In this document: piece after piece, positions 6,124 through 18,331 of the stretch
Layout: each line of letters begins with the position of its first letter
Position numbering within the stretch: the first letter of the stretch is position 1
Assembly (NCBI GenBank): GCA_004000155.1
Contig: RCSS01000196.1
Coordinates: 1-19,383 of the forward strand
Length of the DNA: 19,383 nucleotides
DNA from: Tubulinosema ratisbonensis
Lineage: Eukaryota; Microsporidia; Tubulinosematidae
Reading direction: 5' to 3'
Position numbers and translations under genes: made by a program
The notes under the pieces: generated by a model
What the model was told of the DNA's origin: nothing
Databases searched by the model: none
The model's input: only the letters and a program-made list of their open reading frames with translations

Positions 6124-6338
6124 CTGTAACCAAAACCTGAAGGCAAAGTAGATATGGGCAGTCAATAGAGTGCATAATGGTGGGTTTTATCGGTTGAAAG
6201 GCTCGCAATATATTGCGCTAAACCTAATTGTGTAGAAACATATTTTTACATATGTTTCTTGTGACAGATACTAATTTTTATATAGATAACAAAGTTAAAA
6301 TCTTTGTATGGATTTCCCATCTCCAGACAACAAAAAAA
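6124..6338 (+). mobile_element. SINE-like retroposon, copy A
   Basis: This is a 215-bp unit that starts CTGTAACCAAAACCTG and ends in CAACA plus an A tail (A run 6332-6338). The blocks GGCAGTCAATAGAGTGCA, AAAGGCTCGCA, AGAAACATATTTT and TATGGATTTCCCATC recur in the same order in copies B and C. An internal 10-bp hairpin (AGAAACATAT with ATATGTTTCT) is present. GGTTGAAAGGC near 6191-6201 resembles a degenerate RNA polymerase III B box. Flanking duplications are not clear, so this copy is probably older. It has no coding capacity. Confidence 0.7.
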
Positions 6339-6663: not shown

Positions 6664-6678
6664 GTTAGTAATATTAAT
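6664..6678. repeat. Target-site duplication, left copy (retroposon B)
   Basis: GTTAGTAATATTAAT here is repeated exactly at 6901-6915, immediately outside the two ends of retroposon copy B. The length (15 bp) is typical of LINE-type, target-primed insertion. Confidence 0.8.
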
Positions 6679-6900
6679 TTTTTTTTGTTGCCTAGGGATG
6701 GGAAATCCATACGAAGATCTTTTCGCTATACCTTCTTTATAAGAATATTTATACCTAGTCGACAGAAAAATATGGTAAAATATGTTTCCTATACTTAGGT
6801 ATAGCTCAAGATACTGCGAGCCTTTCCCCCTCTAAACCCCTCCCCTGTGCACTCTATTGACTGCCTAAGTCTACCTTACCTTGCAGGCTTTAGTTACAGG
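6679..6900 (-). mobile_element. SINE-like retroposon, copy B, with poly-A tail and target-site duplication
   Basis: Read on the minus strand, the element begins CCTGTAACTAAAGCCTG at 6900 and ends GGCAACAAAAAAAAA at 6679. It is the reverse-oriented counterpart of copy A. It is bounded by an exact 15-bp direct repeat (6664-6678 and 6901-6915) and has a tract of about eight to nine A at its 3' end. These are the marks of an RNA-mediated (SINE or retropseudogene) insertion rather than a DNA transposon. There is no reading frame of note, so it would depend on a partner reverse transcriptase coded elsewhere. Confidence 0.8.
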
Positions 6901-6915
6901 GTTAGTAATATTAAT
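6901..6915. repeat. Target-site duplication, right copy (retroposon B)
   Basis: Exact second copy of the 15-bp sequence at 6664-6678, abutting the CCTGTAAC head of the element on its other side. Confidence 0.8.
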
Positions 6916-14145: not shown

Positions 14146-15133
14146 ATTAAATATATATTTAGAATTTGTATTTTATATGTTTAATTTTTTATGTATGTAC
14201 CAGTAATAGAATCTTTAACCTGATAAAAATTTTTTGTGTAAGTTTTATATTCTATTTACCTTAAGCTTGGGTTTATATTAAACTCTTTAAATAAAAATAA
14301 TCAAGTGATAAAAAACTTTAGTAAATAAAATTATTGATTTAAATAATTTATATAGTAAATTAATGAAGATCTATTAGAGTGTTTCTTAAACATTAAAATG
14401 CCGTCTTACTTTATTTAATCGATCAAAATTAGTATAATACGATATATTATTTGAGAACTAAATTACAAAGATATTTCAATTTGTATTTTCTCAAAAATAG
14501 AATCTTTACATAAAACTATATTTTTTATAAAAAAAATCTTATCTTATATTTTTAAACATTAATTTATTTTATTAAATACTCTGTATCTAAAAATCAAGGT
14601 CGACTGTAATAATATACTAAATAATGTGCATTTTGAAAAATAGGATAATTTATAACAACTTTTAAGTTTCGAAATTGTGGTAGTTTGTGCGTACCACCTC
14701 ATCAGTCAGATATTAAATGTATACTGCAAGTATCTTTTTATTTTTACCATTAGGGTTTATATTATGACACGAACAATCATTGATCAAAATTGCAATTTAA
14801 ATAAATCACATTGATCAAAATTTAAAATTTTGATCAATGATTGTTCGTGTCATTATGAAAAACGTTCCGTCAGAATTCATAAAGAGGCTCGTTTATAATT
14901 TCTGGATCTTTTTAAAATTTCTGTAAAATAAAAAAATTTTGATAAACTTTATAAATAATCATATGTTTAAAGAATTCTTTAAGCAATAGATTTCATAAAA
15001 TTTCTAATATCAAATATTTATTTTTAACTTTTCGTAAATATTGTATTGTTTTTGAAAATAAGTAACTTAAAAATTTTATTAAAAAAGTTTTTATCTTCTT
15101 TATCAATTATTAAAAATTTTTTAAATTTTGTCC
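14146..15133. other. Intergenic region with a palindromic element
   Basis: No gene is supported. It contains a small GTGGTA/TACCAC hairpin (14677-14697), the long palindrome at 14764-14853, and a less A/T-biased stretch just after it (14857-14910). An AAATTT-type tract precedes the next start codon. Confidence 0.5.
14764..14853. repeat. 90-bp palindromic element with 28-bp perfect inverted arms
   Basis: The arms at 14764-14791 and 14826-14853 are exact reverse complements (left arm starts ATGACACGAACAATC). The 34-bp spacer carries a second copy of CATTGATCAAAATT, so a nested perfect palindrome also exists (15-bp arms around one central base, about 14810-14840). ATTATGA occurs directly at both outer edges (14761-14767 and 14852-14858). 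It looks like terminal inverted repeats of a tiny, internally deleted DNA transposon (MITE-like). Confidence 0.7.
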
Positions 15134-16015
15134 ATGAAAAAATCAGAAAAAGAATATACTAAAAACATTACAACACATAAATCGACACAGTCTTCATTAG
15201 AAAACAAATGTTTGTTTAGAAACTATCTTCCGCGAGCCTATATCTTCGTGGATGAATTGATTCAATTGTGTGTAATTTTATTTACTATACTAAATCTATT
15301 TGAAAGTGTAGATATATTTACCATATTGTTCTTTTATTTTATTTTGCTATTTATTATTTACTTTGTTCAATTAATAACATCAAATTTTGAAAATCTAAAC
15401 CTATCTTATGTGATAGATTTTCATTGTTTTGTGTTAAATGCAGCAAATATAGTTCATCTGATTTTCTTTTGGGTTCTAAATCTCTCATTTATTTCTCATG
15501 CTTATATGTTTATTTGTATTGGCCATTCTAAGATGGCTTTTGATTTTTTTGAGAAAATTTTAGATGTGATATATTTAATGCTAGTGTTTATCCTCTTTAT
15601 TTATATATCAGCTAGTTTTTTTCTAGGCTTAAGTACTTGTAATTTATCAAATAAAGATGAAGCTTTATTGAAATTTCAATCGTTTCAATTACTTACATCA
15701 TTGGTTTTTGTATTCCAATATTTTTCTTTTTTATGTTTATTTTTTACTTCTACAAAAATTTTTGATTTCATTTTCTATTTGGGCATTTTTATTCTTATCA
15801 CAGCTTTAATACCGGTAAATGTCATAAAAAGGGTATGCAATAAAAGAGAAATTTTATTCAAAGTCTACTATCATTCTGTGACGAAAATAGTTTTATCTAT
15901 TTGTGTATTTAATTTAATATTTTTTGAATTTATTAGAATTAAAATAGGGCTTCCGGAAATGTTGAATTTCAAATCTATTCAAAAAATTATGTTGATGAAA
16001 ATTCTTAATACTTGA
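15134..16015 (+). CDS. Multi-pass membrane protein of unknown function (paralogue of 17456-18331)
   Basis: From ATG 15134 (MKKSEKEYTKN) this is a 293-aa protein with a hydrophilic N-terminus of about 35 residues and then six to eight hydrophobic segments, rich in Phe, Ile and Leu. A basic loop (VIKRVCNKREILFK) precedes the last membrane segment, which ends in FFEFIRIKIG. The same order (LP, basic loop, HxTK-type stretch, final segment with IEYY) appears in the protein at 17456, with similar length and start of the membrane region, suggesting an old duplication. Microsporidia carry lineage-specific families of such proteins (for example the DUF2463 type in Encephalitozoon), but I cannot assign it to one. 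A TTG lies two codons upstream in frame; the ATG is preferred and follows an AAATTT tract and TCC. Confidence 0.75.
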   Translation: MKKSEKEYTKNITTHKSTQSSLENKCLFRNYLPRAYIFVDELIQLCVILFTILNLFESVDIFTILFFYFILLFIIYFVQLITSNFENLNLSYVIDFHCFVLNAANIVHLIFFWVLNLSFISHAYMFICIGHSKMAFDFFEKILDVIYLMLVFILFIYISASFFLGLSTCNLSNKDEALLKFQSFQLLTSLVFVFQYFSFLCLFFTSTKIFDFIFYLGIFILITALIPVNVIKRVCNKREILFKVYYHSVTKIVLSICVFNLIFFEFIRIKIGLPEMLNFKSIQKIMLMKILNT

Positions 16016-17455
16016 AGGATATAATACAATGAAATTTACTATAAATAATAAAATATTATGATTATATATTTAAAGATAAGATTATATATTTTTAGAAAAA
16101 TATTTTGTTTCGCAGTTTAGGTTAATATGCAATTTTAGTAAAAAAGAATATATAAATTTTTTATAAAGCGTCACAAAATTTTTTAAAGATGATTAATGAG
16201 AACTGTTAAAATAACAATAAGATAATATTAATCTTTAAATATAAATAATTTAAGTTTTTATTCATATGTTATAATATAGTGAATGGAATTCAATAAATTT
16301 ATAAGTAAAATATATTTATACGATATAGAATAGGCTTATAAGGAAGAAATATAAGTATTTTAGCTTCTTTAAAAAAGTGCTCTTTGGAAATTTTATTAAA
16401 AGCCTCGCCTTTGTATATTACAAAAAATACATAAACAAATGATTGACTGGTTTCTTCATTAAAACATATTTAAATTTTACTAAAATTAATCTTTATAATC
16501 TTAAAAATATTTTGGAAGTTGTTTATTTATAATTTCAGCAGTTTAAAATTTATAGTGTTGGAATTTTTTATAAACACTTAAAATAAAAATTTGTTTACTA
16601 GTAAGTCTCTTAAGCTGGATTTTATCAATTTTAACCGTTATTAGTTTGATTAGTTAAATATAAAAAACTTGAATTACAGCAAATATATCAAATATCACAA
16701 ATCTTAATTGGTTATTAAAATATATTTTTTTAAAAATTTATCAATCTAACTGCCAGTTCGTTTTTTAGTTCCGCATTTTACGATATATGTAAATTGCAAA
16801 AAATATGACAATAGACAGTATTTTGAATGTGCCATTCTTGTGTAGTTTAGTATTATTATAAATAAATGTGGATTTCAAAATTTTTTTGATATGAATATTT
16901 CTATAAAAAAAATTATATTGGTTATATTTTGGTATATTTAACTGTAAAATAATATGATTCCTGTAACCGAAACCTGCAAGGTAATGTAGGCCTAGGCGGT
17001 CAATGGAGTGCAGGGGAGTGGGTTTTGGCAGTGAAAGACTCCCAGTATCTTGAGTTATACCTAATTATGTAGAAACATATTTTACCGTATGTTTCTTCTA
17101 ACTGGATATTATACTTTATACAAAAGGTAAGCAAAAAGATCTTCTTATGAATTTCCCATCTCTAAGCAATAAAAAAATAATAATATTTTACATTAAAATA
17201 AATTAAATATAAATTTTAATAATGAATTGTGATAATGATATTTCAATAAGACTAAACAAAAGTCTAAATAAAATTATATAAATCTTTCGATTGATGAAAA
17301 TAAGTATATTTGTTAAAATTTAACCCATTTAATTCACACATATTTACAAAGAATTATTTCTAAGTTAATTTCTTAAAACTAAAACAAAAAAGGTATTGAT
17401 TTTTAAAATTTATAAATGTTATCTAAGATAAAAATTTAAAAATTAAATTTTTATC
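16016..17455. other. Intergenic region carrying retroposon copy C
   Basis: A/T-rich DNA without a convincing coding frame. The only structured element recognised is the retroposon copy at 16960-17177. An AAATTT-like tract lies just before the start codon at 17456. Confidence 0.5.
16960..17177 (+). mobile_element. SINE-like retroposon, copy C
   Basis: Third copy, same orientation as copy A. It starts CCTGTAACCGAAACCTGCAAG and ends CTAAGCAATAAAAAAA. It shares GGTCAATGGAGTGCA, AGTATCTTGAG, TATACCTAATTATGTAG, AAAAAGATCTTC and ATTTCCCATC with the other copies. The hairpin AGAAACATA/TATGTTTCT (9 bp) is intact. AATAATAT occurs on both sides (16948-16955 and 17179-17186), a possible but weak target-site duplication. 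Confidence 0.72.
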
Positions 17456-18331
17456 ATGAATTTAACATTTATGTCAAAAGAAGCTTCAAAGTATCAAAAT
17501 AAAAATTTGCCTGTGAAAATGAACTTTACAAGTTGTTTGATTGATTTGTGGTTACGGATAGATAATATCATTCATTCATGTATGCTAACATATTTTATAC
17601 TTTTTGTTTTTATAGAAATTAATATATATCTATATTCTATTGTATATACGATCGTGTTAACCATTTTTTATGTTTTAGTTTGTCTGAGCTTAAAATATTC
17701 ATGGTTTTCAATGGCCAGTACTTTATTTTCTTGCTACTATAATTTACTATACAATATAAGCGTAGCTTATATTTTGTTTTTCTTTGGACTGAACATATAT
17801 CACATATTTTGCATTTGTAAACTCTGTATAAATATACGTAGTCAAAACTTAAATAATTATTATCCACATATTTCCGCTATCCTAAATTCATTTTTAATTC
17901 TTTTTAAATCATTATTATTGCTCATAAAGTTAGCATATCCAAAAAAATTAAAAAAAATGATAAATAAAACCAGTTTTGATTATGTTACCGAATCGTTTTA
18001 TAATACTGTATTCTTTTTCTACCTAGTTACCAGTTTTTTTGGTATGTGTGTTTTATACGGAACATCTTATCTTTTCTGTATATGTTTATTTCTGACAATT
18101 TACTTGTTTTTATCTGTTTTCCTACCTTTAATTTTTGTGAGAAGGAAAGTTCGAGATTCTAAAACTAAAAAATTCGCATATTTTCATATGACTCTAAAAT
18201 TAATATCTGCTGTTTCTTTCTTAGATACAATCATAATTGAATATTATTTAGCTGTTTTCGATCCTAAACAGAAGTATTGTTTTTATATATTTAATACTGA
18301 AGGTGCATATCTCAGCCATCTTAGAAATTAA
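17456..18331 (+). CDS. Multi-pass membrane protein of unknown function (paralogue of 15134-16015)
   Basis: This 291-aa protein has a polar N-terminus of about 25-40 residues and about seven hydrophobic segments. A polar break (KKLKKMINKTSFDYV) sits in the middle, and a basic loop (VRRKVRDSKTKKF) precedes the last membrane segment (SAVSFLDTIIIEYYLAV). The tail is short and polar (DPKQKYCFY). The arrangement of loops and the last about 60 residues parallel the protein at 15134, so the two probably form a small, fast-diverging family. No transporter or enzyme signature is recognised. The ATG follows an AAATTT-type tract; a second Met lies at residue 6. The start is intact and the frame is undisturbed. 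Confidence 0.75.
   Translation: MNLTFMSKEASKYQNKNLPVKMNFTSCLIDLWLRIDNIIHSCMLTYFILFVFIEINIYLYSIVYTIVLTIFYVLVCLSLKYSWFSMASTLFSCYYNLLYNISVAYILFFFGLNIYHIFCICKLCINIRSQNLNNYYPHISAILNSFLILFKSLLLLIKLAYPKKLKKMINKTSFDYVTESFYNTVFFFYLVTSFFGMCVLYGTSYLFCICLFLTIYLFLSVFLPLIFVRRKVRDSKTKKFAYFHMTLKLISAVSFLDTIIIEYYLAVFDPKQKYCFYIFNTEGAYLSHLRN

Follow-up and report, generated by a model that had tools for sequence, protein, structure and literature searches.

The window, the whole stretch of 19,383 nucleotides analysed here, contains on its minus strand a full-length copy of a short repeated element (copy B, positions 6679–6900), which as a 222-bp query finds near-full-length matches across its own genome. Read in minus-strand sense, copy B begins CCTGTAACTAAAGCC and closes CCCTAGGCAAC, followed by a tract of eight adenines (A8) read directly at 6679–6686; its head (consensus 1–54) occupies 6847–6900 and its 3′ tail module (consensus about 149–213) lies at 6687–6752, the first part of this module being common to the end of a LINE on contig C19. 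The exact 15-bp sequence GTTAGTAATATTAAT (score 15) stands at 6664–6678 on the 3′ side of the copy and again at 6901–6915 on its 5′ side, confirming the bounding duplication claimed in the first-pass annotation. None of the open reading frames of at least 90 amino acids in the window overlaps copy B and the family consensus measures 221 nt, in keeping with the non-coding element of about 220 bp that had been proposed.

Two further copies on the plus strand, recovered both by BLAST and in the repeat analysis, were likewise real and older: copy A (6124–6338), inverted relative to copy B and 77% identical to it, and copy C (16960–17177), 80% identical to copy B. Copies A (6124–6338) and B (6679–6900) lie 340 bp apart, and an RNA reading through both could form a hairpin. 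On either side of copy C lies a hydrophobic protein, one of 293 amino acids (15134–16015) and one of 291 (17456–18331); the two resemble each other weakly (E 0.002; 16% over 67 residues) and may be an old tandem pair. The window also holds a possible small DNA transposon, an inverted repeat at 14756–14861 with 43-nt arms (86% complementary) around a 20-nt spacer, and a CPSF73 protein whose closest match named as microsporidian is that of Anncaliia algerae (77% identical). A CPSF73 entry labelled Exocentrus adspersus, a beetle, is 81% identical to the window protein over 69% of the query and may be a microsporidian contaminant in the beetle assembly.

The genome searched comprised 236 contigs with 4,116,903 bases, the window being contig C88; the published Tubulinosema ratisbonensis assembly totals 7.56 Mb over 952 contigs (PMC6675976), so that a little more than half of it was covered. 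With copy B as query, the whole-genome search gave at least 41 matches (40 of 306 first-look candidates were scored), including 39 other near-full-length copies at 87–93% and one partial match. A 31-nt tail pattern, allowing up to three mismatches, matched 138 times and its reversed control never; 100 of these 138 matches were examined, and from them 66 stretches, which exclude the copies from the first whole-genome search, were fetched. A 32-nt head pattern matched 72 times, again with no match for the reversed control, and the 28 head loci fetched were those not paired with any listed tail match. In the viral contigs, an exact 36-nt tail pattern had no match. Together, these searches yielded at least 165 distinct genomic intervals, corresponding to 163 copies after joining of pieces, or 164 if separated by sequence, one of the two joins (on C124) wrongly merging a nested copy and the older copy around it. 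The copies, at least 163, total 26.6 kb, or 0.65% of the 4.12 Mb searched. They diverge by 2.3–30% from the consensus, which was built from 65 full-length copies, and since the most similar pair is only 95.4% identical, no very recent burst is visible among the copies examined. Among the 28 head loci, 11 had no BLAST-recognisable tail and seven of them break near position 49–54 (L142, an rRNA-linked insert discussed below, and L146, L149, L150, L160, L166 and L169); by eye, L150, L166 and L169 look like decayed copies.

The copies share a 3′ end and differ mainly at the 5′ end. The common 3′ end (CCTAGGCAAC, usually with A7–9) is reached by 142 of the 163 copies, 82 of them full length and 60 truncated at the 5′ end, as against eight copies with a 5′ end but no 3′ end. 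At the 66 tail-selected loci, the sequence starts at consensus positions 1–3 in 19 cases, 4–10 in one, 11–140 in 26 and 141–172 in 20. The adenine run measures 7–9 nt in 100 of 122 copies, so that the poly-A tail of the earlier description stands as an A tract (A8 in copy B) and falls as a poly-A tail of variable length, the run being nearly fixed.

Target-site duplications were scored in the 122 copies, out of 130, for which both flanks were available, with mispaired 5′ and 3′ flanks from the same family as controls. Scores of 15–17 were reached by eight of the 122 true pairs, copy B included, and none of 2417 mispaired flanks scored above 12; the exact 15-bp repeat at the boundaries of copy B is therefore not a chance match. 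At a score of 9 or more, a duplication was recognised in 37 of the 122 copies, compared with 16 of 2417 controls, and the other 85 had none recognisable at that score. The possibility considered at the outset, that other copies lack A tails and duplications, was thus not borne out. The 37 duplications span 9–17 bp (median 14) and begin with A in 28 cases, a preference to which the A tract and the AT-rich genome themselves contribute. When the consensus served as query, duplications were found in 21 of 78 full-length copies (controls, 6 of 1149) and in 15 of 61 truncated ones (controls, 14 of 905). Among copies with at least 93% identity to the consensus, 23 of 61 have one; below 85%, none of 37 does, as expected under decay with age. 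Copies A and C of the window have no convincing duplication, C scoring 8 and A standing outside the 70 best-scoring copies.

Three individual loci strengthen this signature. On C235 (L016), a copy interrupts a repeat that has a relative on C104 (L039); the C104 locus matches both flanks, lacks the element and has a single copy of the target, and over the joined flanks the two repeats share about 91%. This pair was the clear empty site in a joined-flank search, in which many matches across the junction paired a locus with itself; two other candidate pairs, L076/L066 and L018/L061, failed on alignment. On C124 (L108), a truncated copy has inserted into an older one and is flanked on both sides by the 14-bp duplication GTGGTAGGTTTTAG. 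A minimal copy on C137 consists of about 24 nt of tail between TTGCTATAATCTTA and TTGCTATAAACTTA, a 14-bp repeat with one mismatch; an LTR-type reverse transcriptase lies about 800 bases away. At the LTR loci L032, L038, L040 and L049, copies lie downstream of, upstream of or opposite to the reverse transcriptase, standing as separate insertions would. Since flanks vary from copy to copy, the copies are not terminal parts of a longer coding element, the other doubt raised beforehand. LTR-type elements with long open or broken frames were also seen at L031, L033, L034, L048 and L067, two of them close together on C172; the one at L031 has reverse transcriptase, RNase H and integrase.

Collecting the copies genome-wide thus brought together a common 3′ end, A tracts, duplications of variable length, 5′ truncation and an empty site, which support the target-primed reverse transcription by LINE-type machinery that the first-pass annotation had put forward. 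Our main reading, to which we give a probability of about 0.9, is that copy B belongs to a non-coding retroposon family of 221 bases and at least 160 members, whose insertion proceeded by target-primed reverse transcription using LINE proteins. Transcription would likely start from the element's own head; a LINE endonuclease would then nick AT-rich target DNA, and the LINE reverse transcriptase would recognise the shared tail with its A tract and prime there, often stopping early and leaving 5′-truncated copies.

Remains of such machinery are present in the genome. Among 27 reverse-transcriptase matches, 24 align with LTR-type sequences and three do not, two of these being a single locus on C19 and one lying on C157. 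The C19 LINE (L058, minus strand) combines an endonuclease-like frame with RVT_1 reverse-transcriptase frames; the former resembles PF03372 (E 4e-5) and PF14529 (E 1e-4), in each case falling slightly short of the Pfam cut-off, and matched no PDB chain. This is the only extended LINE in the 236 contigs, where it is old and single-copy with interrupted frames, and LINE remnants lie on C157 and C201. Against the protein database it gave seven matches, the informatively named ones coming from Rhizopus. A search for other copies with its 635-bp 3′ UTR found only C19 itself and a 36-bp inverted self-match, and no duplication of the whole LINE was recognised in its AT-rich flanks, where shuffled sequence scores as well.

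About 620 bases past its last frame, the C19 LINE carries GAAGGTATAGTAAAAGATCTTTGTATGGAT, then 17 unrelated bases, then A8; the counterpart in the element is GAAGGTATAGCGAAAAGATCTTCGTATGGAT, then 18 bases, then A8. BLAST aligns the two over 32 bp at 90.6% (consensus positions 165–196), and a fuller alignment extends the match to about 149–196, some 45 bp, plus A8 in both. The element scores 50 against the LINE's 3′ UTR, the best of 1000 shuffles reaching 43. The last 17 nt before the LINE's A8 and the final 18 of the element are not alike (score −6, against a mean of −4.4 for shuffles), and nine or more distal mismatches occur in none of 115 element copies whose proximal block matches well. 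The LINE end is therefore not explained simply by decay of an element copy. Looking for a matching non-LTR reverse transcriptase, as had been suggested, therefore succeeded as far as the locus itself, its 3′ end matching only in part. From this resemblance we consider it likely that the C19 LINE is a relative of the element's partner, and the partnership itself probable, not proven. Three other comparisons were discarded: a LINE tail behind the C157 remnant fell below shuffles, the C201 remnant had behind it only a full-length element copy, and the sequence upstream of tail-only copies matched the LINE 3′ UTR at best with E 7e-4 in AT-rich sequence, which was not taken as homology.

The head of the element has no evident parent among small RNAs such as tRNA, 5S rRNA, 7SL RNA or snRNA. 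No Rfam family was matched at its gathering score, and looser thresholds gave only three matches, with E values of 3–8, to bacterial or plastid families; ARAGORN found no tRNA in the element. An origin from 5S rRNA was rejected, alignment to locus L140, which carries the best 5S gene of the genome, scoring 21 against a shuffled maximum of 36. The consensus contains no Pol III B box with at most one mismatch, and A-box-like matches only with one or more mismatches. One element copy folds somewhat better than its shuffles (z −2.1, 3 of 200).

Several other origins have to be weighed against LINE-dependent retroposition of a SINE-like element with its own head. A short non-coding sequence present in many copies between direct repeats might also be a MITE, another DNA transposon or a fragment of an LTR, which we regard as extremely improbable: the ends CCTGTAACC and CAAC-A8 are not inverted repeats of each other, the duplications have no constant length (9–17 bp), and truncation affects mainly the 5′ end (60 versus eight copies) while the 3′ end is an A tract. 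More weight attaches to the idea that the likeness on C19 is a separate 5′-truncated element copy that landed behind an unrelated LINE, the true partner being elsewhere, given that tail-only copies are common (the 20 of 66 tail-selected loci starting at 141–172) and that the bases just before A8 on C19 differ from those of the element. Such a copy should have decayed evenly, yet its proximal 32 bp are 90.6% identical and its distal part is unlike all 115 of the 115 copies compared; moreover, the would-be truncation point has no duplication (best score 5), and we hold this arrangement possible but doubtful. The element might instead derive from a LINE by deletion, uniting the 5′ end of the LINE with its 3′ end in one short stretch, as RIME does for ingi, rather than being a SINE with a head of its own. 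A tail module partly common with the C19 LINE and a head without known small-RNA parent would both suit such an origin; however, the 8.4 kb around the C19 LINE match the element only at 165–196 and its head nowhere (BLAST, E up to 1), a comparison that bears on the C19 LINE, which may not be the partner. We judge a deletion derivative unlikely, and retain the retroposon with its own head as the preferred account.

The remaining candidate source for the head is large-subunit (LSU) rRNA, which would make the element an rRNA-derived SINE from a region other than that of SINE28. It is suggested by an insert on C216 (L142:255–371, minus strand, together with L170:1–31) in which an LSU rRNA stretch (RF02543 1252–1300, E 4e-6) is followed, after a few bases, by element head 1–54 at 100% identity to the consensus, the whole forming one insert bounded on both sides by the 17-bp repeat ACCCAGGCTATGCACAT. 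The rRNA stretch of L142 matches all three eukaryotic LSU sequences compared, which come from contaminants (none of 300 shuffles as good); at E up to 1, L170 itself contains no LSU rRNA. Similarity to LSU ends at CCGA, and the next Rfam consensus bases, GAAAAUGGAUGGCGCU, a block near-invariant in eukaryotes, are absent from the C216 insert, which speaks against an rRNA origin of the head. Head 1–54 against the three eukaryotic LSU sequences was matched by 26 to 275 of 300 shuffles, and summed scores over the LSU references for four queries were reached by 54–259 of 500 shuffles (the E. coli rows being void). The LSU sequence of L173 alone came nearer, with 15 to 62 of 500 shuffles over the four queries and 15 of 500 for head 1–54. 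In a four-row LSU profile, the head was again at shuffle level, matched by 21 to 24 of 60 shuffles, and a control part of the element did better (4 of 60). Neither the head nor the L142 rRNA stretch with the head matched E. coli genomes by blastn. Eukaryotic LSU rRNA stretches (L172, L173 and L174) were noted in contigs that public collections file as viral or bacterial.

The C216 insert is likely a chimera of rRNA and retroposon. Because its head is fully identical to the element consensus, we prefer a template switch over an rRNA-derived head: the reverse transcriptase would once have switched from the 5′ end of the element RNA onto ribosomal RNA. That the head is itself a piece of LSU rRNA appears quite improbable, and equally so that the element was born by the fusion of a LINE tail to a piece of the parasite's own LSU rRNA, with the C216 insert as a trace of that origin. 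To our knowledge, this part of LSU rRNA is used by no known SINE, and such a birth, if true, would give an rRNA-headed retroposon drawn from an unused part of LSU rRNA, in a phylum noted for genome reduction.

Microsporidia are model organisms for genome reduction, and the papers that we found mostly do no more than count their non-LTR elements. An element with a LINE candidate, a truncation series, a range of ages and an empty site indicates that LINE-type retroposition shaped DNA in this lineage, and could supply insertion markers for a parasite of Drosophila. It is also a compact case of a SINE-like element without a small-RNA head, an oddity known from Entamoeba.

The T. ratisbonensis genome paper names LTR, Mariner and Merlin elements (PMC6675976). 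In the available part of the Nosema bombycis paper, the only mention of SINEs is a row of the repeat table (28,669 bp, 0.18%), with no head, tail, duplication or LINE partner (PMC3614468). For the close relative Anncaliia algerae, the accessible text reports four non-LTR families (PMC4202319), and the word SINE is absent from that text as well as from the portions available of PMC12449221 and PMC12558613. The open-licence PMC literature that we searched contained no dissected microsporidian SINE, and within that literature this is the first description of a microsporidian SINE-like element dissected to this degree. It is a SINE under the broad definition, which covers short, non-coding, LINE-dependent retroposons with duplications and a common tail. 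It is not one under the strict definition of a small-RNA head with A and B boxes, as quoted in the extract of PMC2996970, because its head corresponds to no known small RNA and clear Pol III boxes are lacking.

Among known systems, the likeness to the C19 LINE (32 bp at 90.6% by BLAST, plus A8) recalls Plutella xylostella, where, in the part of PMC8010984 available, the 3′ end of PxSE5 resembles that of PxLINE1.1 over 43 bp at 84%. According to the same part of that paper (PMC8010984), PxSE5 has a 5S rRNA head and Pol III boxes, neither of which was found in the microsporidian element, and PxLINE1.1 has eight further copies, whereas the C19 LINE is decayed and single-copy in the 236 contigs. 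By analogy, the element appears to work like a SINE, and most like EhSINE1 of Entamoeba histolytica, which, in the extract of PMC2996970, is likewise non-autonomous, bounded by target-site duplications and moved by a LINE. As described there (PMC2996970), EhSINE1 differs in its length of about 500–600 bp and its internal repeats, compared with 221 bp and mostly an A7–9 end in the microsporidian element. The resemblance extends to the head and to the LINE: in that extract (PMC2996970), no small-RNA ancestor was found for EhSINE1, which has only weak Pol III-like boxes, and its LINE is present in 88 complete copies, all with broken frames, as are the frames of the C19 LINE.
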